From NCBI RefSeq assembly GCF_000981585.1, contig NZ_LN831776.1, positions 1,627,001 through 1,691,000 of the forward strand: a stretch of 64,000 nt of DNA, written 5' to 3'. The notes below the pieces were generated by a model. It was not told the DNA's origin. It was given only the letters and a program-made list of their open reading frames with translations, and made no database searches. A program made the translations under genes and the position numbers. Of the stretch, positions 31,244-59,455 are shown one piece after another (position 1 is the stretch's first letter; every line of letters begins with the position of its first letter). The stretch is from Paenibacillus riograndensis SBR5 (GTDB lineage: Bacteria; Bacillota; Bacilli; Paenibacillales; Paenibacillaceae).

Positions 31244-31273
31244 GTTGTCTTTTTGCAGAAAGGAGAGTGTGAC

Positions 31274-33672: not shown

Positions 33673-33722
33673 TCTCGTTAAAACAGAAGGGGCAGCATCT
33701 CCGAAATAGCGGTGCACACAGG

Positions 33723-34532: not shown

Positions 34533-34546
34533 AGGAGGTGAAATGA

Positions 34547-35419: not shown

Positions 35420-35432
35420 AAGGAGGAAGCTG

Positions 35433-36268: not shown

Positions 36269-36338
36269 GCAAGAGGGGTAGGCCGGAGCGGAAATGATAT
36301 TTTGGGAGCAGCGGATAAGGCCAGAAAGGAGGACCCGC

Positions 36339-38597: not shown

Positions 38598-38614
38598 CTG
38601 GGAGGTGGAACAAG

Positions 38615-40155: not shown

Positions 40156-40172
40156 TGGAGAGGTGAGGCGTA

Positions 40173-41825: not shown

Positions 41826-41829
41826 GAGG

Positions 41830-42735: not shown

Positions 42736-42752
42736 AAGGATCGCTCCTCCGG

Positions 42753-43217: not shown

Positions 43218-43388
43218 GAATACACCGCCTTTGACAATGATGATTGTCACAAACTTAATGCTCATCTAAAGTATAGCGCATTTCCAAAGTTTTGCGAAGC
43301 GGAAGCAGGCGCTAAGAGCTTGCCTAGATTTATTTTCCCGATCACGGTAGAATAAGGGTTAATTCGTGAAGGAAAGAGGGAAAAAGGT

Positions 43389-44516
43389 ATGCTTAAAATA
43401 GGTTCACATGTGTCCTGTGCGGACAAGGGTCTCCTGAGTGCGGCCAATGAAGCAAATGAGTACGGATCGACCTCGTTTATGATATATACGGGTGCGCCGC
43501 AGAATACGCGCCGCAAGCCTATTGAATCGATGTATCCCGCCGAAGGCAAGCAGGCGATGAAGGATAATGGTGTGGAGGAAATTGTCGTCCATGCTCCTTA
43601 CATCATCAACTTGGGTTCTTACAAGGACAGCACGTATCAACTGGCTGTTGACTTCCTCCAGGAGGAAATCCGCCGTACGCATGCGCTTGAGGTGAAGCAT
43701 ATCGTACTGCACCCGGGAGCATACACTGACAAAGATGCTGAATATGGAGTGCAGCGGATTGCAGACGGTCTGAACGAGGTGCTTGGCGGTACGAACGAGA
43801 CGGAAGTGCACATTGCTTTGGAGACGATGGCCGGTAAAGGAACGGAAGTTGGCCGCAGCTTCGAGGAAATTGCCTCCATTATCGACAAAGTCGTTCATAA
43901 CGAGCGGCTGTCCATTTGTCTCGATACCTGCCACATCCATGATGCCGGTTATGATATTGTCGGCGATCTGGATGGTGTGCTGCAGCAGTTTGACCAGATC
44001 ATTGGTCTGAGCCGGCTGGGCGTAATCCATATCAATGACAGCAAAAATCCGCGCGGGGCGGGCAAGGACCGCCATACGCCGATTGGCTCGGGCTACATTG
44101 GCTTTGAGACTATCAACAAGGTAGTCCATCACGAAGCCCTTGCAGGTCTGCCGTTCATTCTGGAGACGCCTTGGATCGGAAAAGATGCGAAGAAGCTGCG
44201 CCCGATGTATGAGGTGGAAATTGCCCTGCTGCGCGGCACCGTGGCTGAGCGGTTCGGGGCGGAGTTTCTGAATGAGGTGGAAGAGCTGCATGCTTTTTTT
44301 GCCAAGCAGGAGTTTGATCCCCGCCAGTACGTGCTGAATGTATGGGAACTGCTAAAGAACGATGCCAAGGCCAAAAAAGCTGATCCGCGTGAACCGCTGG
44401 AACGTCTATATGATACGGTTGCTGCCGCACAGCTGTTTCCTCAGCTCAGTGAAGAAGCGGTCAATCAAAGGCTGATCGCTTGGCTGGCAGGCAAGCAGCT
44501 GCTCGTGAACGCTTAA
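43389..44516 (+). CDS. nfo: Endonuclease IV (Nfo) with C-terminal extension
   Basis: 375 residues from ATG 43389, behind AAAGAGGGAAAAAGGT. The AP-endonuclease TIM-barrel motifs are [50 protein letters not shown] and [18 protein letters not shown]. These supply the three-zinc site that cuts DNA at abasic sites. Nfo enzymes are usually ~280-300 residues. Here ~85 more follow ([18 protein letters not shown], then [16 protein letters not shown]), so an extra domain of unknown role is attached. The reading frame is open throughout. Confidence 0.9.
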
Positions 44517-44564
44517 AGCCAAATTATAGATTGCGCATGCAGATGAGAGGATGGAACGAGAATT

Positions 44565-45461
44565 ATGGAATTGCATGTAAAAAGAGAGCATTCGTTAAGC
44601 GGACAATACCCGAACCGGGCGCGGATGCTGATCTCCTGTCCGGACGGACCGGGGATTGTGGCTGCTGTATCGCAATTTCTATACCAGCATGGCGCGAACA
44701 TTGTCCAGTCGGATCAATACACCATGGACCCGGATGGCGGAATGTTTTTTATGAGAGTGGAGTTTGACCTGCCCAAGCTGGCCGAGCGGATTGACGAAGT
44801 GCGTTCAGTCTTTAGCGGGGTTGCGGAACGGTTCAAGATGAACTGGCAAATATTCAATGTAAGCCAAAAGAAACGGCTGGCTATCTTTGTCTCCAAAGAA
44901 GATCATTGTCTGGTTGAACTGCTCTGGCAGTGGCAGGCCGGGGATCTGGATGCCGATATCGCTCTGGTTGTCAGCAACCATACAGATATGCAGGCCTATG
45001 TGGAGTCCTTTGGCATCCCGTTCTACCATATTCCGGTAACGGCGGATACCAAAGCAGAAGCGGAGCAGCACCAGCTTAAGGTCATCGGAGATGACATTGA
45101 CGTTATTATTCTGGCGCGCTACATGCAGATTATCTCGCCCTCGTTCATAGAGCATTACCGCCATCGGATCATCAACATCCATCATTCATTCCTTCCGGCG
45201 TTCGTAGGCGGCAAGCCCTATGCCCAGGCCTATCAGCGCGGGGTGAAGATTATCGGTGCAACGGCCCACTATGTCACTGAAGAGCTGGACGGCGGTCCGA
45301 TTATCGAGCAGGATGTGCAGCGGGTAAGTCACAGTGATGATGTAAATGAGCTGAAACGCATCGGACGCACGATCGAGCGGGTTGTATTGGCCCGGGCAGT
45401 CAAATGGCATATCGAAGACAGAATTCTTGTCCATCACAACAAAACAGTGGTTTTTAATTAA
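44565..45461 (+). CDS. purU: Formyltetrahydrofolate deformylase PurU
   Basis: 298 residues. An N-terminal ACT domain (RMLISCPDGPGIVAAVSQFL, QSDQYTMDPDGGMFFMRVEF) precedes the formyltransferase-like catalytic domain. The catalytic stretch is ILARYMQIISPSF then INIHHSFLPAFVGGKPY, with the Asp box ATAHYVTEELDGGPIIEQD. It hydrolyses 10-formyl-THF to formate and THF. AGAGGA lies about 14 nt before ATG, a weak and distant site. Seems to be a single-gene unit. Confidence 0.93.
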   Translation: MELHVKREHSLSGQYPNRARMLISCPDGPGIVAAVSQFLYQHGANIVQSDQYTMDPDGGMFFMRVEFDLPKLAERIDEVRSVFSGVAERFKMNWQIFNVSQKKRLAIFVSKEDHCLVELLWQWQAGDLDADIALVVSNHTDMQAYVESFGIPFYHIPVTADTKAEAEQHQLKVIGDDIDVIILARYMQIISPSFIEHYRHRIINIHHSFLPAFVGGKPYAQAYQRGVKIIGATAHYVTEELDGGPIIEQDVQRVSHSDDVNELKRIGRTIERVVLARAVKWHIEDRILVHHNKTVVFN

Positions 45462-45471
45462 TTGAATCATC

Positions 45472-45527
45472 TCCGGTGAACCTGCGCAGCCTTTTCTCTG
45501 CATGGACAGTGTGTGCCGTTCACCGGA
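45472..45527 (+). terminator. Possible terminator after purU
   Basis: TCCGGTGAAC (45472-45481) pairs with GTTCACCGGA (45518-45527) around a 36-nt loop that could hold a second stem. No T tract follows. Confidence 0.35.
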
Positions 45528-45706
45528 ATCCTTCTTCTGCCGGGAGCCTGCTCCCGCGGTTATCCTCAAGCTCCGTACCTCACAATGATAATCTAATACT
45601 TTTCTCAACTACTATTAGGTAAAAAAGCATTTTACCAGCATTTTGGCGCTCTCTGCCAAGGTGTGTTTTGTCGTGCTCATAAATGCATTTATAAGGGGGT
45701 AAAGGC

Positions 45707-46570
45707 TTGGCTTCTCAGCGGGGACATCTCTTAAGACGCAATTATTTATTTGCTTTTCTCATTCTGGTTATCGGCTTCGGCGGCCTGCTCGGCTACGATC
45801 TGTATTTCAAGCCATACGTGCTGTCGCAGACTGTGGTCAAGATCAAAGTGGCCGAGGGTAGCTTTTTGCCCAAAAATTATGAACTTAAACCAAGTGATCT
45901 TTACCTGGACTCCGTCCAGACCAAGGATATTCCTTCAGGGGTGATCACAGATGTCAGTCAGGTGGAGCATAAGATTACAAATGTAATATTAACGAACGGT
46001 AGTATTCTGACGGCATCGCTGGTGGATGTCAGTGACCTGGAGCCACAGCAGGACGAGGGGATTTTTCCTATTCCCAAGGAAGCCATCTATGCAATTAACG
46101 GTTCGCTGCGCAGTAGAGACAAAGTGGATATTTATCTGGTTGAAGGTGATTCAGCAAATCAAACGCGGAGTGGTGGCGGGTATAGCTCTGCAACAGCAGG
46201 CAGAACAACCTCTGGCACTGCCGGAACAACAGCGGGGGCAGGAACAGCCCCAGAAACAGCAGCAACTGCAGGAGAAACAAAAACTGTTGGAGCCGCAGGG
46301 GCAGCAAAAACCGTAGGAGCTGCGAATACTGCAACCCCGCAGCCTTCCGCGCCTGCACGCAAAGTATTCCTAACTGGAGTCACAGTTAATTATGTAAGAA
46401 CGGAAGACAACAACGATGTTCAGGACTCGGAGAACGGCAACACGAACAACCGCTTTACTTCAACCGGCAAGGTGGCAGCACCTGAGCTTAAGCTGAAAAA
46501 AAGCGACGGCGAGCTGCTGGGACAATATTTGGAGCAGGGGAAGAAGCTGTGGATTGTACGTGTAGAGTAA
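45707..46570 (+). CDS. CpaB/RcpC-type SAF-domain protein of second Tad-like locus
   Basis: 287 residues from TTG 45707 behind AAGGGGGTAAAGG. One N-terminal helix (YLFAFLILVIGFGGLLGYDL) is followed by the SAF-like domain (AEGSFLPKNYELKPSDLYLD, IPSGVITDVSQVEHK, NGSILTASLVDVSD). Residues ~145-215 are Ala/Gly/Thr-rich with a repeated KTVGAA. A C-terminal part resumes a predicted fold (RKVFLTGVTVNYVRTE). CpaB proteins guide the pilus through the wall or outer membrane; this version starts a gene cluster that is otherwise unlike the first Tad locus. In Gram-positives the wall is the likely site. Confidence 0.75.
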   Translation: MASQRGHLLRRNYLFAFLILVIGFGGLLGYDLYFKPYVLSQTVVKIKVAEGSFLPKNYELKPSDLYLDSVQTKDIPSGVITDVSQVEHKITNVILTNGSILTASLVDVSDLEPQQDEGIFPIPKEAIYAINGSLRSRDKVDIYLVEGDSANQTRSGGGYSSATAGRTTSGTAGTTAGAGTAPETAATAGETKTVGAAGAAKTVGAANTATPQPSAPARKVFLTGVTVNYVRTEDNNDVQDSENGNTNNRFTSTGKVAAPELKLKKSDGELLGQYLEQGKKLWIVRVE

Positions 46571-46591
46571 AAGTGAAAGGAGGCCAATGTA

Positions 46592-47656
46592 ATGAAAATA
46601 TTCAGTTTTGGGATGGATCAGCTGACGGTTAATGAGATCAAGCTTGCCGGGTTCACGGTAGTTACGCAAAATGTCCTGCCTGAACCTTCCCAGACTCAGG
46701 GGCAGATGTTGATGGTTACCAGTGAACAGGTCCCGGTGACAGCTTTGAGCGAGCTGCGGCAGGGCTATCCGAACTCCTCCATATTATATGTTTACCGGCA
46801 AAAGGGGGTAAGGAGCTATCAGGCTATCCATATGTTCTGCGAAAGTCTGGGGATTTTCTTCATCCCGCCGCGTTCTACTTCTTCAGCGATTGTGGAGAAG
46901 CTGCGTTACATTCTGGAGGAGGAACGTGAGGAGCGGGGCAATCTTGTCGGTTTTTTCGGCTCCGGCCCGGGTATTGGCTGTACCAGTGTAGCCAAGCTGT
47001 TCGCCCGGCGGATTGCCGCTGCGGGACAACGTGTGATTCTGCTCGGCCTTGATCTGTACGATCCCGGATTCGACCGCAAAACTGCGATCAGCCTCGACAG
47101 GCTGCGGCCCCGGATGACCGGCAAAATGCTGCAGCCCGCAGACTTTGAAGGTTTGGTAAAGCAGGAGGGTTACGCTTATCTTCCTGGGAATTTTGACTTC
47201 TTAAGCGTTCAGGACTACCAGGAAGAGGAAATTGAATATCTGCTCGCCCAGGCTGCTGAGAATGCCGATGTGGTGGTTGCTGATTTCGGATCGGTTCCCG
47301 AGAGTGCAGCATGGTATGTGGGGATGCAGAAATCCGCCTTGCGTTTGATTGTCACACACCCGAGACACGAATACCGGCTTCAGCCGCTGATGGAGCTTGC
47401 CGGGCATATGGATCTGTATCCGCAGGATTTCCAGTGGATCATCAACCGCAGCAATGTGGAGGAAATGACCTCGCCCAAGAATCTGGCGCTCCGCTTTGGC
47501 AGTGAGATTTTACTTGAACTGCCCTATTATCAACCGTTTCAGGATAGTCTTCCGCTGGGCAAAAGAGAGCTTCAGCATGTAGATGACAAGGTACATGCGC
47601 TGCTGGTATCCCTGGGCCTGGCACCGGAAGCCCGAAAGAAGGGGATTTTTCAATGA
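46592..47656 (+). CDS. TadZ-like protein with a degenerate P-loop
   Basis: 354 residues from ATG 46592 behind AAAGGAGGCC. An N-terminal ~110-residue domain resembles the TadZ receiver-like domain. The ParA/MinD-like part begins NLVGFFGSGPGIGCTSVAK, where the Walker A lysine is replaced by Cys130. Then VILLGLDLYDPGF and DVVVADFGSVPESAAW follow. Compared with the first locus (GSSGKTT), nucleotide hydrolysis is unlikely. It overlaps the next gene by 4 nt (ATGA). It should act as a localisation or scaffold factor of the second Tad machine. Confidence 0.75.
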   Translation: MKIFSFGMDQLTVNEIKLAGFTVVTQNVLPEPSQTQGQMLMVTSEQVPVTALSELRQGYPNSSILYVYRQKGVRSYQAIHMFCESLGIFFIPPRSTSSAIVEKLRYILEEEREERGNLVGFFGSGPGIGCTSVAKLFARRIAAAGQRVILLGLDLYDPGFDRKTAISLDRLRPRMTGKMLQPADFEGLVKQEGYAYLPGNFDFLSVQDYQEEEIEYLLAQAAENADVVVADFGSVPESAAWYVGMQKSALRLIVTHPRHEYRLQPLMELAGHMDLYPQDFQWIINRSNVEEMTSPKNLALRFGSEILLELPYYQPFQDSLPLGKRELQHVDDKVHALLVSLGLAPEARKKGIFQ

Positions 47657-49197
47657 TTGAATACCGGCAAGAGGTTTTACGCGCGAAATGGAATCAAGCC
47701 CAGATTCAACGTGAAGAACAAGGGATGGGGCAGATCCATAAGGCGATATGGCTGCCGAATCCTCAGGACAACCGCAGGCTGTTCTCCCTGAAACAAAGCG
47801 TGCTTCGCACCAGCAGGCCAGGCAAAGATGATTTTTACGGCTTCCTGCAAAAAATGAAAAGCGACATGAACGCCGAGCTGGAGCGGGAGGATGACGGGTA
47901 CTTTGAACTTAATGCGAAGGCGCTGATCGGCGACCCGCAGGCAGTCAGCTTTTTCATGAATGAGATTGAGAAATATCTGCGCAAAACACCGTTTACCGGT
48001 AAGGTACCGGAAGCATACGGGACAGCAGCAGAAGCGCTGTTTCACGAATGGAAGGGATTTGGCCCCGCGTACCGCTGGTTTACCGACCGGGCCTACAGCG
48101 AATCTACCGGGCTGCAGATGATCGGACGGCAGATTTTTTACAATCACCGGGGCAAGTTTGTGGTGTATCCCTATGAGATGCCCTCACTGGACCGGGTGGA
48201 GCAGCTCAAACGCTCTTTGCTGAAAAGCGACCCTGATAAGAAACTCAACAAGGACAATCCTTCTGTAGAGTTCAAAATGGATGATCCGCTCTGGCCCGGC
48301 CGCTTCATCCGGCTTGCGATTTGGGTGTCTCCCAGAGTGTGGGAAGGCTTCACCACGATTTCACTGCGGCGGCAGGTGGTCGAGTTTCTGGATCTGGAGG
48401 ATCAAGCCGGTACGGGATGTATTCCTGCGGAAGCCATTGAGCTGATCCGCGCCCTGTCGGGTACGTTCCGCAACACCATTATTGCCGGAGCGGTCGGATC
48501 AGGCAAAACTACCTTTGCCAACACTGTTGTAGGTGAGCAGCTGCTTGGATCTTCTTCGTGTATGGGAGTAGTGATGATTGAAAAGCATCCGGAGTCGATT
48601 TTGCCGTACCAGATCAAAGGCCATCGGATTATTCCGATTCAGGCAGCCAACGAGGAATTAATGGAGGTCGGGGTGGAGTCGCTGCGGCATGATCCGAACA
48701 TTCTCTATATGACTGAAATGCGCTATAACGAATGGGAATTTTATCTGTGGAGCGGCGAAAAAGGCTATGACGGCATTACAGGCACCTTTCATACGGTGGA
48801 TTCGGAGGATATTCCTTATCAGGGAGCTTTTGCGGTATCCACGCGGATCGGCGGCAGTCTGAAAGGCCATCTGATCTCTGCGCTTAAATCCTGTGAGCTG
48901 GTATTTATTCTGGAGAGCGTAGCGGACGGAAAAAAACGGCTGGCCCGGATCTCCGAGGTGTATTATGACGAAGCTGCAAATTCCGTATTTGCCAATGATC
49001 TGATGCGCTGGGAAGAAGAACAATCCGCCTGGAGCTATAATGACAAGCTGACAGCTGGCCTTATGCGCAAGATGAAGAAGAAAAATCCGCGCGCTTCACG
49101 GGTGCTTTTGCAGGAGCTGGGACATTTAGCTGCGCAGAAACCGATGGATGAGCCGCTGAAGGAGAGCCTCAAATCAAAGATTGTTTTGAACGAATGA
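47653..49197 (+). CDS. Divergent CpaF/VirB11-like ATPase
   Basis: 514 residues. The N-terminal ~250 residues are not obviously related to canonical CpaF. The nucleotide-binding fold begins TIIAGAVGSGKTTFANTVVG (Walker A 278-287). It continues GVVMIEKHPESILPYQIK (the Asp-box position, here Glu), VESLRHDPNILYMTEMRYNE (Walker B-like) and GITGTFHTVDSEDIP (the His box). Divergence from CpaF in the first locus (410 residues) is large. It would power assembly of the second pilus or a secretion channel. Start ATG overlaps the upstream stop. Confidence 0.8.
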   Translation: MIEYRQEVLRAKWNQAQIQREEQGMGQIHKAIWLPNPQDNRRLFSLKQSVLRTSRPGKDDFYGFLQKMKSDMNAELEREDDGYFELNAKALIGDPQAVSFFMNEIEKYLRKTPFTGKVPEAYGTAAEALFHEWKGFGPAYRWFTDRAYSESTGLQMIGRQIFYNHRGKFVVYPYEMPSLDRVEQLKRSLLKSDPDKKLNKDNPSVEFKMDDPLWPGRFIRLAIWVSPRVWEGFTTISLRRQVVEFLDLEDQAGTGCIPAEAIELIRALSGTFRNTIIAGAVGSGKTTFANTVVGEQLLGSSSCMGVVMIEKHPESILPYQIKGHRIIPIQAANEELMEVGVESLRHDPNILYMTEMRYNEWEFYLWSGEKGYDGITGTFHTVDSEDIPYQGAFAVSTRIGGSLKGHLISALKSCELVFILESVADGKKRLARISEVYYDEAANSVFANDLMRWEEEQSAWSYNDKLTAGLMRKMKKKNPRASRVLLQELGHLAAQKPMDEPLKESLKSKIVLNE

Positions 49198-49210
49198 AGG
49201 GGGACAACTC

Positions 49211-50257
49211 ATGGAGCTGTTATTTTATGTGCTTCAGATTGCCTTTCATTTATTGATTGCCGGTGGCTTGTGGCTGCTGGTGAAGCCATTCATTGAGAGG
49301 CATCTGCGCCAGCTTGGGCAAAAGATCGACCAGCGGATGAGCCTGCGGATCAGTCTTTTTGGTCAAAAAGTCAGCAATAAGCAAAGGAGGTGGCTGTACC
49401 GGCATTTGGACGATCTGCTCTATTTTGCCCAACGAAAATATGAGCCGGGAATTAGTGTTATGCGTTTTTCCATCCGGACTCTGTTGGTGTTCATCACGGT
49501 TTTTCTCTCAGGACTGCTTACTCTAAGAGAGCTGCCGGGGCATTTGAGCTTCAGCAATCCTTTCTTGGAAGGTATCAACTTCGATAACCAGCTTCCCGTT
49601 CAGGGATCTTGGCGGTTTCCGCTGTTTGTGGCAGTCATCGCAGCCAGTATTCCTTATCTTCGGACGAGATATCTCTTCGCGCAGCGCAAGGTGCATGGAA
49701 GTTATGATCTGCTGGATGTAATCAAAATTGCGACCAAATTCACACACCTGTCGGTGGACTCCATTTTATCTAAGACGGCTGACTTCCTGACAGAAGAAAG
49801 TGTGCTGAAGACTCCGCTCAGACTGCTTGGAGCCGCATTTGCCAACTACAGCAATGAACGGGAGCTGACCCTTGAGGCAGAGCGGTTTGCAGGAGCTATC
49901 GGAACCACCTTTGCTGTGGAATTTGTCTCGGATTTGCTGTATTTCGAGAAAGAAGGCACCCGTTACCTGAAGAACACGCTGATGATGCTAAGCCGGTCCA
50001 TGGAGCAGCAGCGGGAGACGATTCTTACAGTGAAGGCAGGGAGCCGGGATGCGATCAGTCTGGGGCTGTACGGCAATCTGGTGGTGCTGGTATCATCCGT
50101 CGGAACCTTTATTTATATGCTGAAGCCGGATGTCTATTTCAAACTGCAGTTTCAGACTACTGTCGGCCTAACCTTTTTGATGATTATTATATCCGGGCTG
50201 TTCATTTCTTTCATGATCAGTACCATACTCGCCAGGCCAAAGCTGGACTACCACTAA
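49211..50257 (+). CDS. TadB-like membrane platform protein of second locus
   Basis: 348 residues from ATG 49211 behind AGGGGG. Helices at the N-terminus (LIAGGLWLLVKPFI), at ~95-115 (TLLVFITVFLSGLLTL), at ~140-155 and two at the C-terminus (GNLVVLVSSVGTFIYMLK, LTFLMIIISGLFISFMIS) frame a cytoplasmic helical domain (VIKIATKFTHLSVDSILSKT). The topology fits TadB/TadC proteins, although T2SSF motifs are weak. The call depends on position directly after a CpaF-like ATPase. Confidence 0.65.
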   Translation: MELLFYVLQIAFHLLIAGGLWLLVKPFIERHLRQLGQKIDQRMSLRISLFGQKVSNKQRRWLYRHLDDLLYFAQRKYEPGISVMRFSIRTLLVFITVFLSGLLTLRELPGHLSFSNPFLEGINFDNQLPVQGSWRFPLFVAVIAASIPYLRTRYLFAQRKVHGSYDLLDVIKIATKFTHLSVDSILSKTADFLTEESVLKTPLRLLGAAFANYSNERELTLEAERFAGAIGTTFAVEFVSDLLYFEKEGTRYLKNTLMMLSRSMEQQRETILTVKAGSRDAISLGLYGNLVVLVSSVGTFIYMLKPDVYFKLQFQTTVGLTFLMIIISGLFISFMISTILARPKLDYH

Positions 50258-50268
50258 GGTGATGAATT

Positions 50269-51138
50269 ATGGATAGATTTTTACTTTTGATTGCGATACT
50301 GGGACTTGTATATCTCGCATTGCTGGTTTTTGTGAGCAGCAGCACCAGGCAGGAGCGTTATTTTCTCCGGTTGGGTGCCAGATGGAAGACACTGGGGGAG
50401 CGCATGCACAATGAGCGGCTGCAGCAGCTTCTTTATAACAGCGGCCTCACCATTTCCGCAGGCAAAATCACACTGTTCCGCTATTCGGCGGCACTGATAT
50501 ATGTGCTTGTTCAAGCGGCAGGGGACTTCCTGCGGTCCGCGCCTTTTTCCATCTACGATCTGCTCGTCGCCGTTCTGATTTTGTTGATTACCAGTCCGCT
50601 GAGATATCTTCCGCTGGGGTGGCTGCTGGCTTGGATGCATCAGAAGTCACTTATTCAAAAAGACGGGGAGCTGATCTCCTTTATCCGCCTCTATGAAAAT
50701 AACCGGCTGCGCAAACGGGGATATGTGCAGTTTGGGGCCTTTTGCGCCGGAACGGCAGGGCATTTCAACTACATCCGTCAGGATTTGTATGAGCTGTCAG
50801 AGCGGGCAGTGGATGAGGGGACGGAACGGGCCATTGAATGGTTTTGCGGTAAATTTCCGGACAACCATGCGTTCATCAACGACATTCGTTCGATTCTGCT
50901 GGCTACGGAGGGGATGGACGACGATACGGAAGCGGCCAATTATCTGCGGGAGCAGGGGAAGATTATCACCAAGATCTCCAGCGATCAATATTTGAAAAAA
51001 TGGTCCTTCATCGGCGATGTCTCCACCATCATCAACGTCATCCCCTCCATCGCCACTTTTCTGATGATCGTATCGATGGCGATGCAGTACATTTTGCTGA
51101 TCAAAGGGAATTTTAATGGGGTGGGGCTGTTTCAGTGA
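50269..51138 (+). CDS. TadC-like membrane platform protein of second locus
   Basis: 289 residues from ATG 50269 behind AAGGTGATG. Helices are visible at the start (LLLIAILGLVYLALLVFV), ~75-125 (YDLLVAVLILLITSPLRYLP) and the end (IATFLMIVSMAMQYILLI). The central helical part (ISFIRLYENNRLRKRG, FCAGTAGHFNYIRQDLYELS) resembles the T2SSF cytoplasmic domain only in outline. It pairs with the upstream gene, 11 nt away. Confidence 0.6.
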   Translation: MDRFLLLIAILGLVYLALLVFVSSSTRQERYFLRLGARWKTLGERMHNERLQQLLYNSGLTISAGKITLFRYSAALIYVLVQAAGDFLRSAPFSIYDLLVAVLILLITSPLRYLPLGWLLAWMHQKSLIQKDGELISFIRLYENNRLRKRGYVQFGAFCAGTAGHFNYIRQDLYELSERAVDEGTERAIEWFCGKFPDNHAFINDIRSILLATEGMDDDTEAANYLREQGKIITKISSDQYLKKWSFIGDVSTIINVIPSIATFLMIVSMAMQYILLIKGNFNGVGLFQ

Positions 51139-51197
51139 GTTTTTTGTTATATTCAAGAATCCAATAAAAACATAAAATAAAAAGGGAGATATTAACA

Positions 51198-51410
51198 ATG
51201 AAAAAAGACGCTATTTCTACTGGATTGTTCATCGCTATCGGGTTTCTGTGTGTTGCCATCGTAATTGCCATTTTGATTCCGGTTGTGCGGGATGTTATTA
51301 ACGCTGCGGACGACAACAGACCGACAATACCTGGAGTAACTATGGTTCAACCGGCAGAGTTAGCTCCATCCGCCACAGTCGCCAATACTGAGTTACATAC
51401 TGCGGTCTAA
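51198..51410 (+). CDS. Tiny pilin-like protein 1 of second locus
   Basis: 70 residues from ATG 51198 behind AAGGGAG. A short basic N-terminus (MKKDAIS) leads straight into a ~22-residue helix (TGLFIAIGFLCVAIVIAILI), and a ~40-residue Pro/Ala-rich tail follows. There is no glycine plus +5 glutamate cleavage site of the Flp kind. It is a paralogue in tandem with the next gene (both start MKKD.IS and share AIGF). Likely a major or minor pilus subunit; inference. Confidence 0.6.
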   Translation: MKKDAISTGLFIAIGFLCVAIVIAILIPVVRDVINAADDNRPTIPGVTMVQPAELAPSATVANTELHTAV

Positions 51411-51414
51411 GACG

Positions 51415-51558
51415 ATGAAAAAAGACTCGATCTCAGTTGCCATGTTTCTGGCGATCGGTTTTGTGATTGCGGGAATGTTCATCGCGGCGGCAACGAATAT
51501 CATCGGCAGCAGCCAGGACGACATCATCACACACACCAAACAAGTCGAGCAGTATTAA
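51415..51558 (+). CDS. Tiny pilin-like protein 2 of second locus
   Basis: 47 residues from ATG 51415, four bases after the upstream stop. The start is MKKDSISVAMFLAIGFVIAG and the helix is followed by a short polar tail (SSQDDIITHTKQVEQY). It is too short for ordinary gene finding, and no strong ribosome binding site precedes it, so translation probably depends on coupling with the first. The shared MKKD.IS...AIGF pattern with the preceding protein argues that both are real. Confidence 0.6.
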   Translation: MKKDSISVAMFLAIGFVIAGMFIAAATNIIGSSQDDIITHTKQVEQY

Positions 51559-51573
51559 AAGGGGGCGTGCGCA

Positions 51574-51954
51574 TTGAAGGCTACCGTCCTCCGGGCATTA
51601 TTCATGTGGCTTGTCCTGTTTATAATCCTGCAGCCCATCTTCACTTATATTGATTACCTGCTAGATTTGCAGGTCAAGGCTAACACATCCTACATCACTC
51701 AAAAAGCGGCAACGGAGGGTATGGTCACGGCTTCAATGAGGAATGAGGTCATCTCTAACCTAAAAGCTGTCGGATTTCCTGAAGGTTCTATTCAAATCAC
51801 AAGCAGCACAGAAACCTTGCAGGAACGCAAGCAACGCATGGATGTGTATATTTCTGCACCTAGAATGAATCTGTTTCCTTACAATTTTTCCGGTGTGTCA
51901 CAGCCCTCGCGTTATTACGGGCATGGGTCAATCATGAGTGAGTATCTCGACTGA
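51574..51954 (+). CDS. Minor pilin-like membrane protein A
   Basis: 126 residues from TTG 51574 behind AAAAGGGGGCG. One N-terminal helix (LFMWLVLFIILQPIFTYIDY) precedes a small extracellular domain with SNLKAVGFPEGSIQITSS, mixed alpha-beta in outline. The size and topology match TadE/TadF-like minor pilins, but I do not recognise a defined family. It lacks a clear glycine cleavage site. Confidence 0.5.
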   Translation: MKATVLRALFMWLVLFIILQPIFTYIDYLLDLQVKANTSYITQKAATEGMVTASMRNEVISNLKAVGFPEGSIQITSSTETLQERKQRMDVYISAPRMNLFPYNFSGVSQPSRYYGHGSIMSEYLD

Positions 51955-51974
51955 TTAAGGGATGAACCTAATCT

Positions 51975-52472
51975 ATGGACTATATTATTAAGCTTGCATT
52001 TGTTCTGCTCATCTTCATCTATTCCTGGTTTTTTCAGATTCAGAATCAGGAATGGGACATGCTGCGCAGCATGCTCAAGGATGCCAATAACATTGCTGTT
52101 CATGACGCATCACAGGAGTTGAATGAGTCCGCACGGGCACAAGGCCGTCTGATTATCAAACCCGCTGAAGCTTTTGCCGCCTTCCGGCAATCTCTTCAGG
52201 CAAATCTGGGACTGGACGACGGCCTGTCCCCCCTGGCGGGGAGCCGGCTGCAAACTCAAGTAAAAATCGTGAAGTTCGACATTGTTGATCAGTCTAGCGG
52301 AGTCACCTTTCCTTTTCTCTATGAGGACAGCAATTATGGCATTACCAAATACATACAAGGTCCTTCCGTGATTGCCGTCATTGAGACGGCTCACCCGGTA
52401 TTAATCTCCCGTGCGAAAGTCCAGGAGGCCATAATTGTGCCTGCCGTGCAGGAGTACAAAATGAATAAGTGA
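51975..52472 (+). CDS. Minor pilin-like membrane protein B
   Basis: 165 residues from ATG 51975, 9 nt behind AAGGGATG. One N-terminal helix (IIKLAFVLLIFIYSWFFQI), then a soluble domain (MLRSMLKDANNIAVHDASQE, ending VPAVQEYKMNK). The DASQEL segment recalls TadE-like proteins in Gram-positive loci. Same orientation and tight spacing to the gene before it. Function inferred from context only. Confidence 0.5.
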   Translation: MDYIIKLAFVLLIFIYSWFFQIQNQEWDMLRSMLKDANNIAVHDASQELNESARAQGRLIIKPAEAFAAFRQSLQANLGLDDGLSPLAGSRLQTQVKIVKFDIVDQSSGVTFPFLYEDSNYGITKYIQGPSVIAVIETAHPVLISRAKVQEAIIVPAVQEYKMNK

Positions 52473-52649
52473 TTTAATGAAGCGTGCGGATTTTTTGGCT
52501 CTGGCCGCTTTTGATCCAGCGTGCCATTATCGGTTGGATTGGCAATTGCGCTCCGGCATATCCGATGAGCATTAATTGAAATGGTTAACCTGATCCGAGG
52601 CGAGCCTTAGCAGCCGCATCCAAATTCATTCTTAAAGGAGAGAATCTAA

Positions 52650-53252
52650 ATGAAAAAGACAATTCTGAAAGTAACTCTGGCAATAACAATGATGTTCGGC
52701 TCCATATTGATTCAAGGAGCAGTAATTAATACAGCATCTGCAGCAGCCAGCCAGTCACAACCAGTAATGACAGACAATCTAATCAAGTATGGTTTGAAGA
52801 AGGACGTGGAGCTGCCGGTTACCGTAACTGCTGGTGGTCTTAGTTACACGCTGGAGAAGATCATGATATATGATGCCAAGTCGAAGGATGCTCTGGCGCT
52901 GGCCAAGAAGTACGGTTATGACCTGAACAACGCTAAGTATTTTGTTTGGACAAAGATTACCGTGGAGAATAAGAGTGGGAACGTTGTTCAACAGAATGCT
53001 AAGGATCTACGAGATAAATGGCGTCTACGTTTTGGGGATTTGCCGGAGGAGGAAGCTTCTGCTGCTATGCCGGAAGTAAGCTATTACAAACCAAATAGCA
53101 AAGAAGCGCTTTGGGATTGGAGTTTAAAGCCAGGGGAGAAGCTTACTACCTATCAAGGACTACGTTACACTGGAAAACTCAAATATTTTGAGCTAAGTGT
53201 AGATAATAAAAGAGAATCTAGCTTCGCAAATATTGTGAAATGGAAAGAGTAG
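52650..53252 (+). CDS. Secreted Ig-like/DUF4352-like protein
   Basis: 200 residues from ATG 52650, 8 nt behind AAAGGAGAG. Signal peptide is LKVTLAITMMFGSILIQGAV with cleavage near ASAAAS. The remainder is a single beta-rich domain (YTLEKIMIYDAKSKDA, FVWTKITVENKSGNVV, WDWSLKPGEKLTTYQGLRY) like the TRF2-fold/DUF4352 proteins that modify or sense at the surface. It precedes the large adhesin-like genes by 7 nt. The 177 bp upstream (52473-52649) hold no recognised gene or riboswitch. Confidence 0.6.
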   Translation: MKKTILKVTLAITMMFGSILIQGAVINTASAAASQSQPVMTDNLIKYGLKKDVELPVTVTAGGLSYTLEKIMIYDAKSKDALALAKKYGYDLNNAKYFVWTKITVENKSGNVVQQNAKDLRDKWRLRFGDLPEEEASAAMPEVSYYKPNSKEALWDWSLKPGEKLTTYQGLRYTGKLKYFELSVDNKRESSFANIVKWKE

Positions 53253-53259
53253 CATACTG

Positions 53260-55533
53260 ATGGGAAAAAATAAACTATGGATAATTGCTCTTATTGTCTC
53301 TTGCTTGGTATTTATGCCGACCATAAACTATTCTGCACAAGCAGAAGGTGCCAAGCAAGGCAGCGTCAGCGTGCCGGTGACAAGTGGCTTAACGGGATCG
53401 GCCAATAGTGCGAAGACCTTTTATCTTGATTTGCCTAGCGGAGTCTCCAGTTCCGCGATAAAGACGGGCACTCTCAAATACTCTGGAAGTAATAGTGTCG
53501 TAGGGGCGATCAGCATTGAGAACGGGAAAATAAAACTTACGCTGAAGGGGACGGCAAAGGATGAAACGTTCCCTGTAGAAGGCAAAGATCAAAGTTTCAA
53601 TCGTCCATTTGTAACCAACCCAGGAAATTCAATCTGGCGGTATGCGGATGGACGCCGCTGGCAAATTAATAACTATGATGAATACAGAGACGTCAATACA
53701 TTCTATAATGCAGCTGCAACTGATTACAGTACACCCTCAACTAATCCGCCAACTAAAAATGTATCTACTAAATCTATTACCATTGTACCGCCCAATTCGG
53801 CAACATGGTTTCGGAAGGACCAAACAGTGGTTCCCTTTAGTTCTGTCAATGAATCAAGTATCAAGATGCAACTAGGAACGCTTTTAGATGGGGCTAAAGG
53901 GGCTGGTGGTCTCAAAAATGGGAAAATCGTCATTACATATCAAGTTCCCACAGCAAACGTAAGGCCTGAACAAGTTTCTGATAATTTTGAAAAAGGACAG
54001 TGGGTTGAAGGACGTCTATATTTTGTCAAACAACCTTACTACTACGAAGCCCAAGCCAAACTCACCTCCTACAGTTACGCCGGTACAGTCACCTTCGACT
54101 ACTCCCCACCCGACCAAGCTACACTAAACGGAACGGCCACTTTGGAGAAGCCAAGCCCGAACCCGATCAAGCTGGAAGGCAGTAAGGTGGATGTGAAGAT
54201 TAACGTCAAAGGGGAGCTATTAGGTTACACGGATTCCTCTAACATCGAAGAATGGGTGTTTTACGCCAAGGAAAAGAACGGTACCGCCAAGGCCGACATG
54301 AAGAAAGAGTACAGCAAGCAACTTACTGCATCAAAAAGCTTTGACTTCGCAATCCCGGCCAGTCGGGTCGTCAATGATAATTTCAAGCAAGACTATACCC
54401 TGACAGTCGTAATCCGGTTCAAGAAGCCTGTGGTTACCAAGACCGGAACTATAACATCACTGGAGCAGAGCATGGAAGTCTCTGCCGGGGTGTACAAGAA
54501 GGATAACCCGGTCAGCTATCCATCTGTACCGAGTACACCGCCCAAGCCGGAAGGCAAACCGCCTATTGCCCGAATCACTGCACCTAAGTACATCAAAGCC
54601 GGTTCTGACATGATGGTATACGGGGGCAATTCCTCCGATCCGGACGGATACATTACTGACTATGCTTGGGGAACTCCTGGAGCAGAAGGCGGGATTGAAA
54701 ATACGGCCAGAGGTTATGTCTGGTATACCCGGGATAAGGTCGGAGAGACTTTTCCCATTACCCTGACCGTCGTTGATAATGACGGCATGACCGGAAGCAC
54801 CAGCACGGAAGTGACGGTCATCGAGCCGAGGCCATCGGCAGATCTCGAAATTAGCGGCTCGCTCAAGCAGAACCGGAAAACCACATTGACCAACAGCAGC
54901 TCAAGTCCGACCCGGTTTCCGATCATTAAGTCCAGGACGCAGGTCACGATTAGTGCAGTCAGCGGTGGCACGAATGCGGACATTAAGTACAGTGGCAGCT
55001 TGGCCGAGCTGGAGAGTAAAGATGTACTTTTTAGGATACCAGGGAAGTATAGGGCGACGATTCACGTGGAGAATACGGCCGGGTATGCTTCAGACAAGGA
55101 GATTACCTTCGATATCGCTCCCGATGAATCCCCAGTTGCCTACTTTGCAATGCCCATAGGGGCCTATAGGGACCCGACTAATGGAAATAAAGCAGTCATT
55201 TCCATTGATGATATGTCTTTTTCTTCAGACAAAGATAATATTACGAGACGGATTTGGGAATACCGCTACGATTCTAATAACAACGGAAGTTTTACAGATG
55301 AAGGCTGGGTACAGTTCAGTAGCGAAAACAAAACTCGCCTAAATTTGGAACTGTATCAGGTCGGGAAGTATGAAGTACGTGTTACCGTTATTGAAGAGTT
55401 CGGCCAGCCGACGATTGAGGATTTTGTCACCGATGCCGATAGGCTGCGGACGAGCTCTGAGGCTACCCAGAATGTTATCGAACGAATAGTAGAAGTGAAT
55501 AACCGCCCGCCTGAAGTAGATTGGGATTTTTAA
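53260..55533 (+). CDS. Large secreted protein with PKD domain
   Basis: 757 residues from ATG 53260, 7 nt after the previous stop. Signal peptide (LWIIALIVSCLVFMPTINYS, cleavage near SAQAEG). A beta-rich N-terminal region has no recognised family. A PKD domain follows at about residues 430-520 (PPIARITAPKYIKAGSDMMV, GGNSSDPDGYITDYAW, DGMTGSTSTEVTV), and a second, similar module may lie near the C-terminus, ending NRPPEVDWDF. No LPXTG or other anchor is seen. It resembles the next gene in domain type, so they may form an extracellular complex with the pilus. Confidence 0.7.
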   Translation: MGKNKLWIIALIVSCLVFMPTINYSAQAEGAKQGSVSVPVTSGLTGSANSAKTFYLDLPSGVSSSAIKTGTLKYSGSNSVVGAISIENGKIKLTLKGTAKDETFPVEGKDQSFNRPFVTNPGNSIWRYADGRRWQINNYDEYRDVNTFYNAAATDYSTPSTNPPTKNVSTKSITIVPPNSATWFRKDQTVVPFSSVNESSIKMQLGTLLDGAKGAGGLKNGKIVITYQVPTANVRPEQVSDNFEKGQWVEGRLYFVKQPYYYEAQAKLTSYSYAGTVTFDYSPPDQATLNGTATLEKPSPNPIKLEGSKVDVKINVKGELLGYTDSSNIEEWVFYAKEKNGTAKADMKKEYSKQLTASKSFDFAIPASRVVNDNFKQDYTLTVVIRFKKPVVTKTGTITSLEQSMEVSAGVYKKDNPVSYPSVPSTPPKPEGKPPIARITAPKYIKAGSDMMVYGGNSSDPDGYITDYAWGTPGAEGGIENTARGYVWYTRDKVGETFPITLTVVDNDGMTGSTSTEVTVIEPRPSADLEISGSLKQNRKTTLTNSSSSPTRFPIIKSRTQVTISAVSGGTNADIKYSGSLAELESKDVLFRIPGKYRATIHVENTAGYASDKEITFDIAPDESPVAYFAMPIGAYRDPTNGNKAVISIDDMSFSSDKDNITRRIWEYRYDSNNNGSFTDEGWVQFSSENKTRLNLELYQVGKYEVRVTVIEEFGQPTIEDFVTDADRLRTSSEATQNVIERIVEVNNRPPEVDWDF

Positions 55534-55552
55534 GTGGAGAAAGGAAAGACAT

Positions 55553-58500
55553 ATGAAACGTTTATTGAAGGAAAGCATCATACTATTCCTTTGTTTTGCT
55601 TTACTGCTCCCTTTCTTGCCACGACCAGCATTAGAGGTGGTAGGGTTAGGAACAGTCGTGCAGGCCGCAGAGGACGACATCATTTATTACCGGGATATCA
55701 ACTTTGAAGCCGGACAAGGGAGTCACGGAAACCAGGATAATGCGATCACTTTAGACTTTCCAGCCCTCAAGGTTATCAATCTTAAATACAATAAAATCAC
55801 TAAAAGATTGACCTATGATGTTGCGCCTGGGGCCAACCTGCGGGTCCATTTGAATAGTAGTTATGGTACAGAACGAATTATGACCAAGATGTGCTCTTCT
55901 ATTTATACCAAAAAGGGGTATGAATACGAAAAAATGGATCAGTATGGGGAAGACCAGTCCTGGTTTTGTCGTGAAAACCCATACTCTTACTACGATGATC
56001 GTTATTGGCCAGCGGATTTCGGAAACTTGTATAGTTTTGTCCCTTATGAGGAGCGGTATAAACCTTATGTTGATTTTGATTTATCTAACATAAGAGAGAA
56101 AATGAAAGTAACAGCACCGAACGTATACTTTCAAGGTTCTAACGACCTTCAAGAACAAGACATACGTCCAGGATTAGCTGGCGATCCGGAATTGTTCAGA
56201 ATTAGAATAGTTGTTCATACAGATTTTCTTGCGGGGGACCCTTACGGTGTCGGCTATACACCGGCCTACTGGACTCCATATATGACAAGGACGGCTGAAC
56301 TCATACCGAATCATCCACCCTCTTTATCCGTGGGTACACCTAATGGAATAACGTTAGTCAATGCTCCCAATTTGAGCGGAGTTAATATTGAGGGATATGT
56401 CAGTGATCCGGATAACGAAGATGTAACGGTAACCGCTGAAATCCCTAATGTTTTCTACAAGAAGACCGTTGTACCTCAAGCCAAATTTTCAAAAAATTTC
56501 AGTATACCGATAGACGCAATTCAAGACTCTTTGCCGCCAGGGGCGTACACGATGAATATCACGGCATCCGACCCCTCTGGAATGACAGCCAAGGCATCGC
56601 TCACGATTAATGTCAAACAGCAAATGAGGAACAAGTCCTTTGTGCTCGTCAATACACCTGTAGAAACGAAAACAAAATTCTTTGACTCGGAGGGCGATGC
56701 TAAACATGGAGAGCGCTACAGATTCGATCATGATCCATACTTTTTTGATAATTCCATGGGCATCATCGGAGACTCCGGGTTGTGGCGCAGTTCTGTCTAC
56801 CCTTCCTTCCCTTATAGTGGAGTATATGTGGCTACTTTTCAGGGCCGGGACAACCCCAAAAACGATGACCGGTTCGACGTTTACCGGAAATGGAGCCGGG
56901 ACAATTTGTCATCCATGACTTTCCATGTGCACCGCAAACCGATTGCCTTGTTCAGCGCCAAGCTGATGGGCGGATGGTTACAGATTACCGACAGCTCGTA
57001 CGATTTAGATCATATTACTGCATCCAATAAAGGGCTGATGGATTGGCAATGGCAATATAAGAAGACAGAAGGGCAAGTCTGGACGGACGGGTTTCCTCCG
57101 GCACAGCTACCGGGCAATGACCAGTATGATATTCGCTTAAGAGTGAGAGACGTAGATGGTGAAAATGGGGCTGGTGTGTGGAGCGATTGGTCGCAGCAAA
57201 CCGTAGGAGCGGCCTATAACTTACCCCCAGTTGCACTGTTTACGGTGGAGCCGAGCATCGTGTCTTACCGGAAGGCAACGACGATTATAGACAAATCCTT
57301 TGATCCGGATAATGACCCGCTGGATGTTTATAATTGGACCGTAATTAAGGATGGCTGGCAGCAGGTATGGAGTCATTGGGGCGGTGCTACTACACCGCCG
57401 AACATCGCCGCATACGGAGTCGGGACCTATCAGCTCACCCTAAAGGTTCATGATAACCGCGGGCTTTGGTCGGAGCCATACAGCCAAACCGTACAGGTGA
57501 TTAATCATCCTCCGGCAGCTGCTTTTAGCATGCCAACGGAAGTGTACCGGGATACGGTCATTACCATGGAGAATATGACACCAGATCCAGACGAAGACGG
57601 CGATGTATTAAGCTACGCTTGGAACGCAAGAATCAATAACAGTTCATATTATTATTCTGGAGGCAACCGAAATCAGGTCATGACCATCCGGGACCTGATC
57701 GCACGCAGCGGCATTACACAGCAGCAAGCCATATCAGATGGCTGGGAAATGCGCCTGACCGCTTCAGACGGAACACTTTCCTCTAATGCAACCAGAAATT
57801 TTACTGTTTTGAACCATGTTCCGACAGCAGCCATTAACGGGCCTGCAACGGTGTATCAGTTCGACACAAAACAGTACACATCGTCTGATAATGATGGAGA
57901 TCCATCCGATATGGCCAGTCTTCAATATTTTTGGAAGGTGACGGACAGTGACGGGGCCACCAAATTATACAAGACTCCTAGCATCGAGGTCAGTTTCCCG
58001 AATTCAGGTATTTACACCCTGGAGCATTGGGCCGTAGACCAGATCGGGGCCAAGTCGAACATCGACACGCTAAAGGTCAATGTACTGAAGAACCTGGCAC
58101 CATCGATGACGATAACATCCCCTGCTGGCACATCGGAGAACCCCTCCGTGCTGGATGCAGAGAAGCAAGGAGATCCGTTGGTCGAGTGGACATACTCCGA
58201 TCCGGAGAATGACCCGCAGGAAAAGTACCGGCTGGAGTTTTTTACAAAGGAAGGTATCTTGGAAAAAAGCGTGGAGAACGCAGATAACACCGGCTTGATC
58301 CGCCAGTATCAGGTCCCTAATCCAACGTTTAATCGCTTCGAATATTTCACTGTATTGGGCCGGGCGTATTCTAAGGGTTCCTGGTCAGAGATTTCGAATG
58401 AAAAAATGTTCATCATCGACAACCCTCCGAAGCCTGGATTTAGTTTATTGACGGATACAGGAAAGGATGCCACAAAGGTACCGATCTATCGGACGGATGT

Positions 58501-59437
58501 TCTTAGCATCAAAAGCACGGCTACAGATCTGGACGAGCCGAAAGGAGATTCTATCAGCTATAAATATACTCTTAAGCCCGAAAACGGAACGGAAGGACTC
58601 GCCGGCACCCAGGGCGATTTCACGAAGAAATTTGCTTCCAATGGAATTTTTACGTATCGTCAGGTCGTTACGGATTCGCTGGGACTCTTCCGTGAGATTA
58701 CACATAGCCTCACGGTTGTAAACCGTCTCCCGAAAGTGAATATCACGTATCCGACTAGCGGTAACCAGGCCAAGCCCACCATCGTCAGCACGCTTACGCC
58801 GATCGTCAAATGGGATTATCAGGATGAGGATGGAGACCAACAGCAGCGGTATAAAGTAAGAATCATCAATTTAACAACTGGCGCAATAAAGGTGCAATCA
58901 GGTGAACAGGTTTCAAGTGCTAAGCAGTGGCAGGTGCCCGCTGGAGCGCTTGCAGAGTATGAGAAGTATGCGGTAGAGGTTGAGGCTTTCGACGGCTTTG
59001 ACTGGAGCGCGATTTCTCCGCGGAAATATTTTATGGTCAATCTGTTGACGGTAAAGGGCGGAGTCAAGCACACCGAGGAATGGAACGCTAACCGCCAAGC
59101 CTATAATCTGAAGCAAAGCGGAGATCCGGAAAGTCCGCGCGCTTATAACGTGTACTGGGCAGGAGAAGCCTTCGTGCTGCAGGCAAAGACAACCGGTCTT
59201 CCGGATACGGTTCAGGTAACGATGACGGGAGGGTATACAACGCAGCTCACCCCGGCTGATAGTGACAAGCTCATTTGGGATGGACAACTCACTGATCCTT
59301 CCTTTGAGAAATTACCAAATGGGCCGGTTACGTTCACCTTCACGGCAACGAATGAATATCAGACAAAGGTAGATACGGTGACAGTAGTCATTTCTGAGGA
59401 TTGGACGGAGTATTTCCGCAGTCATAGAATAAAGTGA
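55553..59437 (+). CDS. Giant secreted multi-PKD/Ig-like protein
   Basis: 1294 residues from ATG 55553, 9 nt behind GGAGAAAGG. Signal peptide (ESIILFLCFALLLPFLPR, cleavage near VQAAED). At least five PKD/Ig-like modules are marked by recurring (N/D)xPPxAxF and SDPDNEDV or DPDNDPLD blocks (near residues 265, 560, 660, 750, 860), and two further repeats with a YSDPENDPQEKYR and YQDEDGDQQQRYK pattern near 885 and 1085. It has no LPXTG, SLH or membrane anchor at its end (WTEYFRSHRIK). It is the last gene of the second Tad-like locus. Likely an extracellular adhesin or substrate of that machine. Confidence 0.72.
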   Translation: MKRLLKESIILFLCFALLLPFLPRPALEVVGLGTVVQAAEDDIIYYRDINFEAGQGSHGNQDNAITLDFPALKVINLKYNKITKRLTYDVAPGANLRVHLNSSYGTERIMTKMCSSIYTKKGYEYEKMDQYGEDQSWFCRENPYSYYDDRYWPADFGNLYSFVPYEERYKPYVDFDLSNIREKMKVTAPNVYFQGSNDLQEQDIRPGLAGDPELFRIRIVVHTDFLAGDPYGVGYTPAYWTPYMTRTAELIPNHPPSLSVGTPNGITLVNAPNLSGVNIEGYVSDPDNEDVTVTAEIPNVFYKKTVVPQAKFSKNFSIPIDAIQDSLPPGAYTMNITASDPSGMTAKASLTINVKQQMRNKSFVLVNTPVETKTKFFDSEGDAKHGERYRFDHDPYFFDNSMGIIGDSGLWRSSVYPSFPYSGVYVATFQGRDNPKNDDRFDVYRKWSRDNLSSMTFHVHRKPIALFSAKLMGGWLQITDSSYDLDHITASNKGLMDWQWQYKKTEGQVWTDGFPPAQLPGNDQYDIRLRVRDVDGENGAGVWSDWSQQTVGAAYNLPPVALFTVEPSIVSYRKATTIIDKSFDPDNDPLDVYNWTVIKDGWQQVWSHWGGATTPPNIAAYGVGTYQLTLKVHDNRGLWSEPYSQTVQVINHPPAAAFSMPTEVYRDTVITMENMTPDPDEDGDVLSYAWNARINNSSYYYSGGNRNQVMTIRDLIARSGITQQQAISDGWEMRLTASDGTLSSNATRNFTVLNHVPTAAINGPATVYQFDTKQYTSSDNDGDPSDMASLQYFWKVTDSDGATKLYKTPSIEVSFPNSGIYTLEHWAVDQIGAKSNIDTLKVNVLKNLAPSMTITSPAGTSENPSVLDAEKQGDPLVEWTYSDPENDPQEKYRLEFFTKEGILEKSVENADNTGLIRQYQVPNPTFNRFEYFTVLGRAYSKGSWSEISNEKMFIIDNPPKPGFSLLTDTGKDATKVPIYRTDVLSIKSTATDLDEPKGDSISYKYTLKPENGTEGLAGTQGDFTKKFASNGIFTYRQVVTDSLGLFREITHSLTVVNRLPKVNITYPTSGNQAKPTIVSTLTPIVKWDYQDEDGDQQQRYKVRIINLTTGAIKVQSGEQVSSAKQWQVPAGALAEYEKYAVEVEAFDGFDWSAISPRKYFMVNLLTVKGGVKHTEEWNANRQAYNLKQSGDPESPRAYNVYWAGEAFVLQAKTTGLPDTVQVTMTGGYTTQLTPADSDKLIWDGQLTDPSFEKLPNGPVTFTFTATNEYQTKVDTVTVVISEDWTEYFRSHRIK

Positions 59438-59455
59438 AATGTGAGGGGAACGTAC

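Follow-up and report, generated by a model that had tools for sequence, protein, structure and literature searches.

We analyzed a 64,000-nucleotide stretch of the genome of the soil bacterium Paenibacillus riograndensis SBR5 (the window) and focused on a Tad-like locus at positions 45707-59437, labelled T2, which neighbours an Flp-type Tad locus labelled T1 (31253-41825). T2 consists of 12 closely spaced genes, all on the forward strand and with open frames throughout, encoding in sequence a CpaB-like protein, a TadZ-like protein, a CpaF-type ATPase, two membrane platform proteins, the very small proteins tiny1 and tiny2, the minor-pilin-like proteins mp1 and mp2, and the proteins sec200, PKD757, and PKD1294. 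A first-pass annotation of this DNA had described one Tad-like run of co-directional genes with two PKD proteins at its end, and we found the frames at the same positions. The window copy is chromosomal (7.92-Mb contig), and thus does not lie on a plasmid with transfer genes; the closest named relative found was Paenibacillus jilunlii, at 97% for the ATPase.

The ATPase (47653-49197, 514 amino acids [aa]) has an intact Walker A motif (GAVGSGKTT) and matched the TadA model TIGR03819 at an E value of 4.3e-12, under that model's own cut-off. Against T2SSE it scored 24.3 bits alone, slightly below the cut-off, and 25.1 bits with neighbours in frame. The profile of its family matched solved CpaF structures at 8.5e-43, which places it among the TadA/CpaF-type motors. 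Searched singly, the platform proteins in the TadB position (49211-50257, 348 aa) and the TadC position (50269-51138, 289 aa) matched neither T2SSF nor any other relevant family, and T2 can be said to have two T2SSF-type platforms solely through aligned relatives, of which 3 of 15 (best 5.9e-7) and 1 of 14 (2.3e-4), respectively, matched T2SSF. The CpaB/RcpC-like SAF protein (45707-46570, 287 aa) and the TadZ/CpaE-like ATPase (46592-47656, 354 aa, with a 14-row alignment) gave weak profile matches (TIGR03177, E = 0.0087, and TIGR03815, E = 7e-4), with which their positions and plasmid annotations agree: several plasmid relatives of the former are annotated as "SAF domain" and it is the first core gene in other loci too, in the same order, while some plasmid relatives of the latter are annotated as "ParA family". 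By eye, the P-loop of the TadZ-like protein, GSGPGIGCTS, is without the usual Lys, and the same is seen in 13 aligned relatives.

Following the platforms, tiny1 (51198-51410, 70 aa), with a single N-terminal hydrophobic helix, and its tandem relative tiny2 (51415-51558, 47 aa) are putative leaderless pilins according to the motif test described below, as are mp1 (51574-51954, 126 aa, TTG start) and mp2 (51975-52472, 165 aa) putative leaderless minor pilins. The AlphaFold2 model of mp2 (mean confidence, pLDDT, of 90.8) has a long helix at residues 2-46 followed by five strands, and this predicted structure has the form expected of a pilin-like subunit. Profile and motif searches of T2 found neither an Flp motif nor an A24 peptidase nor a match to TadE, in agreement with the first-pass annotation, which had listed the Flp pilin, the prepilin peptidase, and a TadG-like protein as missing; mp1 and mp2 likewise had no Pfam TadE match.

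Conservation and spread of T2

T2 is one conserved system. Our ATPase search covered 295 genomes of the family, and among the 43 from the same genus, 36 had an orthologue at 82-100% identity. Genes 1-11 occurred in order in 28 of 30 named loci, including L014 and L031, which have broken frames; the exceptions were L023, cut by a contig end, and L026, which instead encodes a protein of 423 aa and a fused PKD protein of 1686 aa. Immediately upstream of T2 lay purU in 27 of these 30 loci, with L023 and L031 beginning near a contig end and L030 located elsewhere, and at the other end sec200, PKD757, and PKD1294 were followed by transketolase in 20/20 chromosomal regions, some of them from genomes shared with the named loci. 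The recurrence of the gene order, which the first-pass annotation had put forward as a check, is borne out. That annotation also held that T2 would not be a single system if the ATPase and platform genes parted from the tiny pilin-like genes in other genomes, or if PKD genes were never linked to them; these genes do stay together, and PKD genes are linked to them in all 20 chromosomal regions and in five of the seven plasmid records with a PKD757 relative.

Beyond these loci, 40 further regions were reached through distant ATPase matches and mp2 matches. The conserved set comprises the SAF protein, the TadZ-like protein, the CpaF-type motor, two platforms, one to five single-helix tinies, mp1, and mp2. 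Across Bacilli the seven-gene core turns up repeatedly, in many cases next to VirD4-like genes on large plasmids, and it was whole and in order in 11 of the 20 loci found with mp2 and in 11/11 plasmid loci; these 22 complete core loci, 20 of them distinct, supplied no profile rows. Gene order was never broken in loci with an incomplete core. Among those found with mp2, contig ends truncate L061 and L062, no ATPase match was obtained in L071, and one or two core families were not found by these profiles in L067-L070, L072, and L073. The most widespread T2 marker here was mp2, present in 60 of 398 Bacilli genomes and 48 of 398 phylum genomes. Branch C (L044-L052) has a bare core with one or two tinies and, in the eight loci reaching mp2, no giant proteins. 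The recurrence of the core in order in other genomes supports the view, already put forward in the first-pass annotation, that T2 is a distinct Tad-type machine. In L049, the bare core is followed by a Peptidase_M24 gene.

Pilin-like proteins without prepilin leaders

Cleavage of prepilins counts among the steps held to define type IV filaments. Using a simple motif test for the prepilin site G|xxxxE, we detected it in 0/47 mp1 and 0/47 mp2 proteins (31 of each set being type A), 0/31 tiny1, 0/31 tiny2, and 1/26 distant tinies. T1, a separate system, served as the positive control, and all three of its proteins that were tested (the Flp-like and two TadE-like proteins) carried the motif. The T2 pilin-like genes have no prepilin leader, a feature that looks new. 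In the window, in-frame stops are located 2, 6, 11, and 18 codons before the starts of mp2, mp1, tiny1, and tiny2, respectively, with no in-frame ATG, GTG, or TTG between those stops and the starts, and in mp1 and mp2 the hydrophobic stretch begins at a median index of 3.

Deeper relatives have leader-like N-termini. The full prepilin motif was present in one tiny of L067, in mp1 of L069, and in mp1 and five tandem tinies of L070, and an A24 peptidase gene adjoins mp2 in both L067 and L069. In all three loci, mp2 has a charged N-terminus ending in Gly, and in the mp2 alignment Met1 of the leaderless proteins corresponds to the residue directly after that Gly. L065 and L066 look intermediate between the leader-bearing and the leaderless loci. 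Judging from these sequences, we infer that the leader was probably lost, along with the peptidase, in the branches that include the window. The five tandem full-motif genes of L070 are Flp-like and stand beside its T2-like mp1/mp2 pair (8514-10349).

Like the Flp/Tad (type IVc) pilus, T2 has a CpaF-type motor, two platforms, and tiny helical candidate pilins, along with proteins that resemble TadZ and RcpC/CpaB by weak profile matches; unlike it, T2 lacks the G|xxxxE site, a TadV within the locus, and any match to TadE, and it has a PKD cassette. Given that the Flp prepilin site and TadV are missing, we file T2 as a Tad-like variant and not as a member of the Flp/Tad pili. The nearest precedent is found in Gram-positive "No Flp" tad-like loci of five named species, which were reported to contain tadV although no prepilin motif was apparent in them (Imam et al. 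2011, PMC3244431). These operons resemble T2 in the missing motif and in their distant biosynthetic genes, and differ from it in the presence of tadV; the part of that article consulted makes no mention of a plasmid module, a cassette of giants, or a series of leader losses (PMC3244431). A widespread branch apparently without prepilin cleavage would make the need for this step directly testable.

The giant-protein cassette and plasmid relatives

Downstream of mp2, T2 continues with sec200 (52650-53252, 200 aa, signal-like N-terminus), PKD757 (53260-55533), and PKD1294 (55553-59437). PKD757 matched K319L-like_PKD and PKD_4 above the cut-offs. PKD1294, with PKD/Ig-like repeats, scored 26.6 against PKD_4, slightly below the cut-off of 27, and its Ig-like Rha78A_N domain was above the cut-off. 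By eye, PKD757 and PKD1294 both open with a Sec-type signal sequence. The two proteins align consecutively to single giants of L026, L086, L087, and L116, with PKD757 as the earlier part, which indicates that the window's PKD pair probably represents a single giant that was split into two proteins. The first-pass annotation had treated them as a pair that forms the pilus or the secreted product of the machine; besides probably being halves of one protein, both carry the Sec-type signal, and the tinies are likelier fibre subunits.

Variation is much greater among the cassette proteins than in the machine. Across 20 genomes, identity to the window ranged from 43 to 93% for PKD757, from 53 to 95% for PKD1294, and from 38 to 82% for sec200, and the first ~240 residues of PKD1294 were the least conserved. 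In some other loci, an SLH protein occupies the place of sec200. Comparing window DNA with that of a 256-kb Paenibacillus sonchi plasmid (L077), which carries the entire type-A set, cassette included, we found 64-77% identity for machine pieces and 88.9% over 6,837 alignment columns for the cassette. The edges of this block (window 52632-59449) fit the start of sec200 (52650) and the stop of PKD1294 (59437), and the jump in identity points to a recent swap of the cassette, as one unit, between two machines that share 67% identity in their ATPases. We conclude that sec200-PKD757-PKD1294 acts as an exchangeable cassette, which also looks new; its boundary can serve as a natural experiment for learning what surface proteins a single machine will take. 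The genes for TadZ, the TadB-position platform (PlatB), and PKD1294 are each in two pieces in the P. sonchi plasmid copy, which may reflect either decay or sequencing error.

In several T2 loci, a similar domain of ~79 aa with a basic tail forms the C-terminus of the giants. In the window, this C-terminal Ig-like domain of PKD1294 (59195-59437), supported by alignment, class search, and model, ends in ..EYFRSHRIK; a model of the final 120 aa had a pLDDT of 73, falling below 50 at residues 110-120. As a less circular test of its association with T2 than a count of loci, we searched the class with the domain profile, which matched 22 of 398 Bacilli genomes, once in each except G578 (which has two mp2 matches), and 21 of these 22 also had mp2. 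Seven matches came from outside the query alignment and the genus, six of them in genomes with mp2 and one, G306, in a genome without it. In L120, the domain gene adjoins another Tad-like locus. In L116, L117, L118, and L119, it is paired with a smaller protein that has a signal-like or membrane N-terminus, with no machine beside it; these pairs may be cassettes orphaned from a machine, or the domain may have an unrelated use there.

This arrangement raises the question of whether T2 is a type II-like secretion system, in which a short pseudopilus of tiny and mp proteins would push the PKD proteins from the space between membrane and wall outward with no extended pilus. The position of giants after mp2 in many loci, a common C-terminal domain that could act as a sorting signal, and the presence of just one to five small tiny genes per locus would fit such a function. 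However, the branch C loci have the core without giants, and domain-bearing giants are also found apart from any machine gene. CpaF-type motors, whose solved structures the T2 ATPase profile matched, and SAF proteins are moreover components of pili in known systems, and we regard this reading as unlikely.

Relatives of the T2 ATPase were present in 32 plasmid records, of which 29 were typed non-mobilizable. In the eight annotated T2 plasmid regions (L077, L078, L086-L088, and L090-L092), mp2 is followed by at least one smaller protein and then by a PKD or other giant gene, the PKD match of L090 being situated across the record start, and a VirD4-like gene lies upstream of the core in all but L090. 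Among 14 T2 plasmids, we detected VirD4-like genes in 13, relaxase-like (Replic_Relax) genes in 11, and VirB4-like genes in 11, the numbers above curated cut-offs being 13, 9, and 7. The VirD4-like gene was within 10 kb upstream of the T2 ATPase and on the same strand in 10 of the 14, against a random expectation of ~0.5, with the plasmids not being fully independent. PKD757 relatives were found in only 7 of 72,556 plasmid records; five of the seven also had a T2 ATPase (hypergeometric P = 1e-16), with the PKD match 4.6-10 kb downstream of it. The sixth, a Lysinibacillus plasmid, has an SLH gene and a giant Ig-like gene beside a different type IV pilus-type ATPase, and the seventh record is from Vallitalea. 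A second copy, in Paenibacillus ihuae (L030), is on a contig of 187 kb where its neighbours look plasmid-like by eye; this contig is presumably a plasmid. T2 is probably of plasmid origin.

With coupling proteins so close to the core, T2 might itself serve these plasmids as the channel for DNA transfer, which would make the chromosomal copy a relic. The typing of 29 of 32 records as non-mobilizable would fit, in that the usual transfer parts went unrecognised. Still, VirB4-like genes in 11 of the 14 plasmids (7 above cut-off) point to a separate type IV secretion system, and the chromosomal copy is retained with open frames in many species; we consider a channel function very improbable.

Proposed function and the neighbouring locus T1

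We propose, from gene content and sequence comparison, that T2 is a Tad-derived contact or adhesion filament machine that works without prepilin processing, probably derived from a plasmid and now chromosomal, and we place the probability of this reading at roughly 0.5. The motor and platforms would stack the tinies, made already "mature", into a short filament or pseudopilus that the SAF protein would guide through the wall and that mp1 and mp2 would prime or cap. The giant PKD/Ig protein would exit by Sec and dock on the machine or the wall via its C-terminal Ig-like domain, with its variable N-terminal part facing other cells or surfaces and the small cassette protein helping to anchor it. 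The device was probably first at home on a large plasmid that carried transfer genes, and would most likely promote contact between donor and recipient there; in one Paenibacillus clade, a copy would have entered the chromosome at a distance of 15 kb from the normal Tad locus, to serve in adhesion or contact.

Several observations weigh against this proposal. An upstream in-frame start precedes the conserved Met in 17 of 31 tiny1 frames, and mp2 did not match solved pilins. In L070, leaders are present and the stretch contains no A24 gene, so the joint loss of leader and peptidase is not uniform, and mp2 of L067, L069, and L070 lacks Glu at +5 and fails the motif test, which is why its leader was judged by the charged N-terminus and Gly. 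The ATPase tree, which places the copy on the P. sonchi plasmid and P. ihuae L030 as sister group of the chromosomal clade (node values 0.958 and 0.971), is of one gene, has weak nodes, and by itself gives no plasmid-to-chromosome direction; we infer that move from the wider plasmid setting. The P. sonchi VirD4-like protein was found at ≥80% coverage on nine other plasmids, none of which is among the 32 T2 records. As for the giants, L044, L045, and L047-L052 carry the core with no frame of at least 600 aa within 7 kb downstream, and the PKD proteins may be able to do without the T2 machine. Outside the named chromosomal set, 18 loci have a frame of at least 600 aa downstream of mp2, and the C-terminal domain was in or beside 10 of them, 8 of which supplied profile rows or copy such rows; the profile misses the other eight (L039, L041, L042, L056, L065, L070, L076, and L088, where the PKD gene extends beyond the fetched stretch). 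In the seven domain-bearing genomes outside the query alignment and the genus, mp2 was nearby in G300 alone, as a fragment with no other core genes.

The likeness to recipient-selecting plasmid type IV pili and to Tad plasmids of Cutibacterium acnes suggests, by analogy, a mating role for T2. R64 carries a plasmid type IVb pilus with a PilV adhesin, and PilV-bearing type IV pili on IncI2 plasmids promote donor-recipient contact. On TP114, a plasmid type IVb pilus with a variable PilV adhesin selects recipients (PMC9045228). The part of this source consulted shows the features shared with T2 plasmids to be a type IV filament system, a transmissible plasmid, and a variable adhesin, T2 being known from its gene setting alone, and the differences to be a IVb and not a Tad pilus, an enterobacterial host, and a shufflon (PMC9045228). 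As for a recipient-selecting adhesin in T2, its sequences show variable cassette proteins and apparent cassette exchange. The C. acnes linear plasmid has tad genes with conjugative-transfer signatures (PMC5696575), and thus, like T2, combines the two on a Gram-positive plasmid; unlike T2, it is predicted to make Flp pili, and the consulted text mentions no PKD cassette. In the Myxococcus Kil Tad pilus, several tip gene clusters serve one pilus and reportedly recognise prey (PMC12075869), so that, as far as the consulted text goes, a single Tad machine has exchangeable tips there, as T2 would have exchangeable surface proteins; the Kil tips are pilin-fold minor pilins, whereas the variable T2 proteins are PKD/Ig proteins with signal-like N-termini.

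We advance tentatively, and hold to be somewhat less likely than not, the wider idea that T2 represents a new type IV filament subclass, with pilins translated mature and prepilin processing lost together with the peptidase. Under this idea, large Bacillota plasmids would have spread it as a device for gripping recipients, equipped with cassettes of giant adhesins that can be exchanged, and a Paenibacillus lineage would have domesticated it. T2-related genes mark large Bacillales plasmids, mostly typed non-mobilizable, for which a contact device is thereby suggested. The plasmid-borne relatives, absent leaders, cassette exchange, and shared C-terminal domain go beyond the first-pass annotation.

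T1 (31253-41825, forward strand) encodes TadZ, TadA, TadB, TadC, Flp, TadE, a 767-aa protein, a TadE-like protein, TadV, and an FHA protein. Its Flp-like frame, with G|xxxxE, is at 35433-35624; it has two TadE matches, and the 767-aa protein, with a sub-threshold DUF5702 match, is the one that had been called TadG-like. T1 had no match to the T2 CpaB profiles. The two loci, previously put 5 kb apart, are separated by 3.9 kb (41825 to 45707). The T1 ATPase was matched in 61/61 same-genus genomes searched, the best match in G657 being just 35% identical. Seven same-genus regions beside T1 (L079-L085) have no T2 gene, with L081 stopping at a contig end, and four of them come from genomes without a T2 ATPase orthologue in the genus search.

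Our search of the 7.92-Mb genome found a single A24 peptidase, located in T1 (39670-39972), as would be expected if T1 and T2 formed one system, with the T1 TadV cleaving the tiny and mp proteins at an atypical site. Such a system would also fit the spacing of the two ATPases, which share a strand at a distance of 14.7-15.6 kb in 22/22 genomes listed with both, and the adjacency of T1-type and T2 loci in L059 and L063. However, almost no residues are available before the hydrophobic stretch in mp1 and mp2, given its median index of 3 and the stops 6 and 2 codons upstream, and T2 also occurs on plasmids with no A24 gene in the fetched stretches, to which that search was confined. We therefore judge a bipartite system improbable and prefer T2 as a filament machine of its own. 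T1-type Tad loci adjoin the T2 core also in other families, in L059 and L063, with a protein-kinase-like gene (by eye) between them, which suggests repeated co-location of the two systems.

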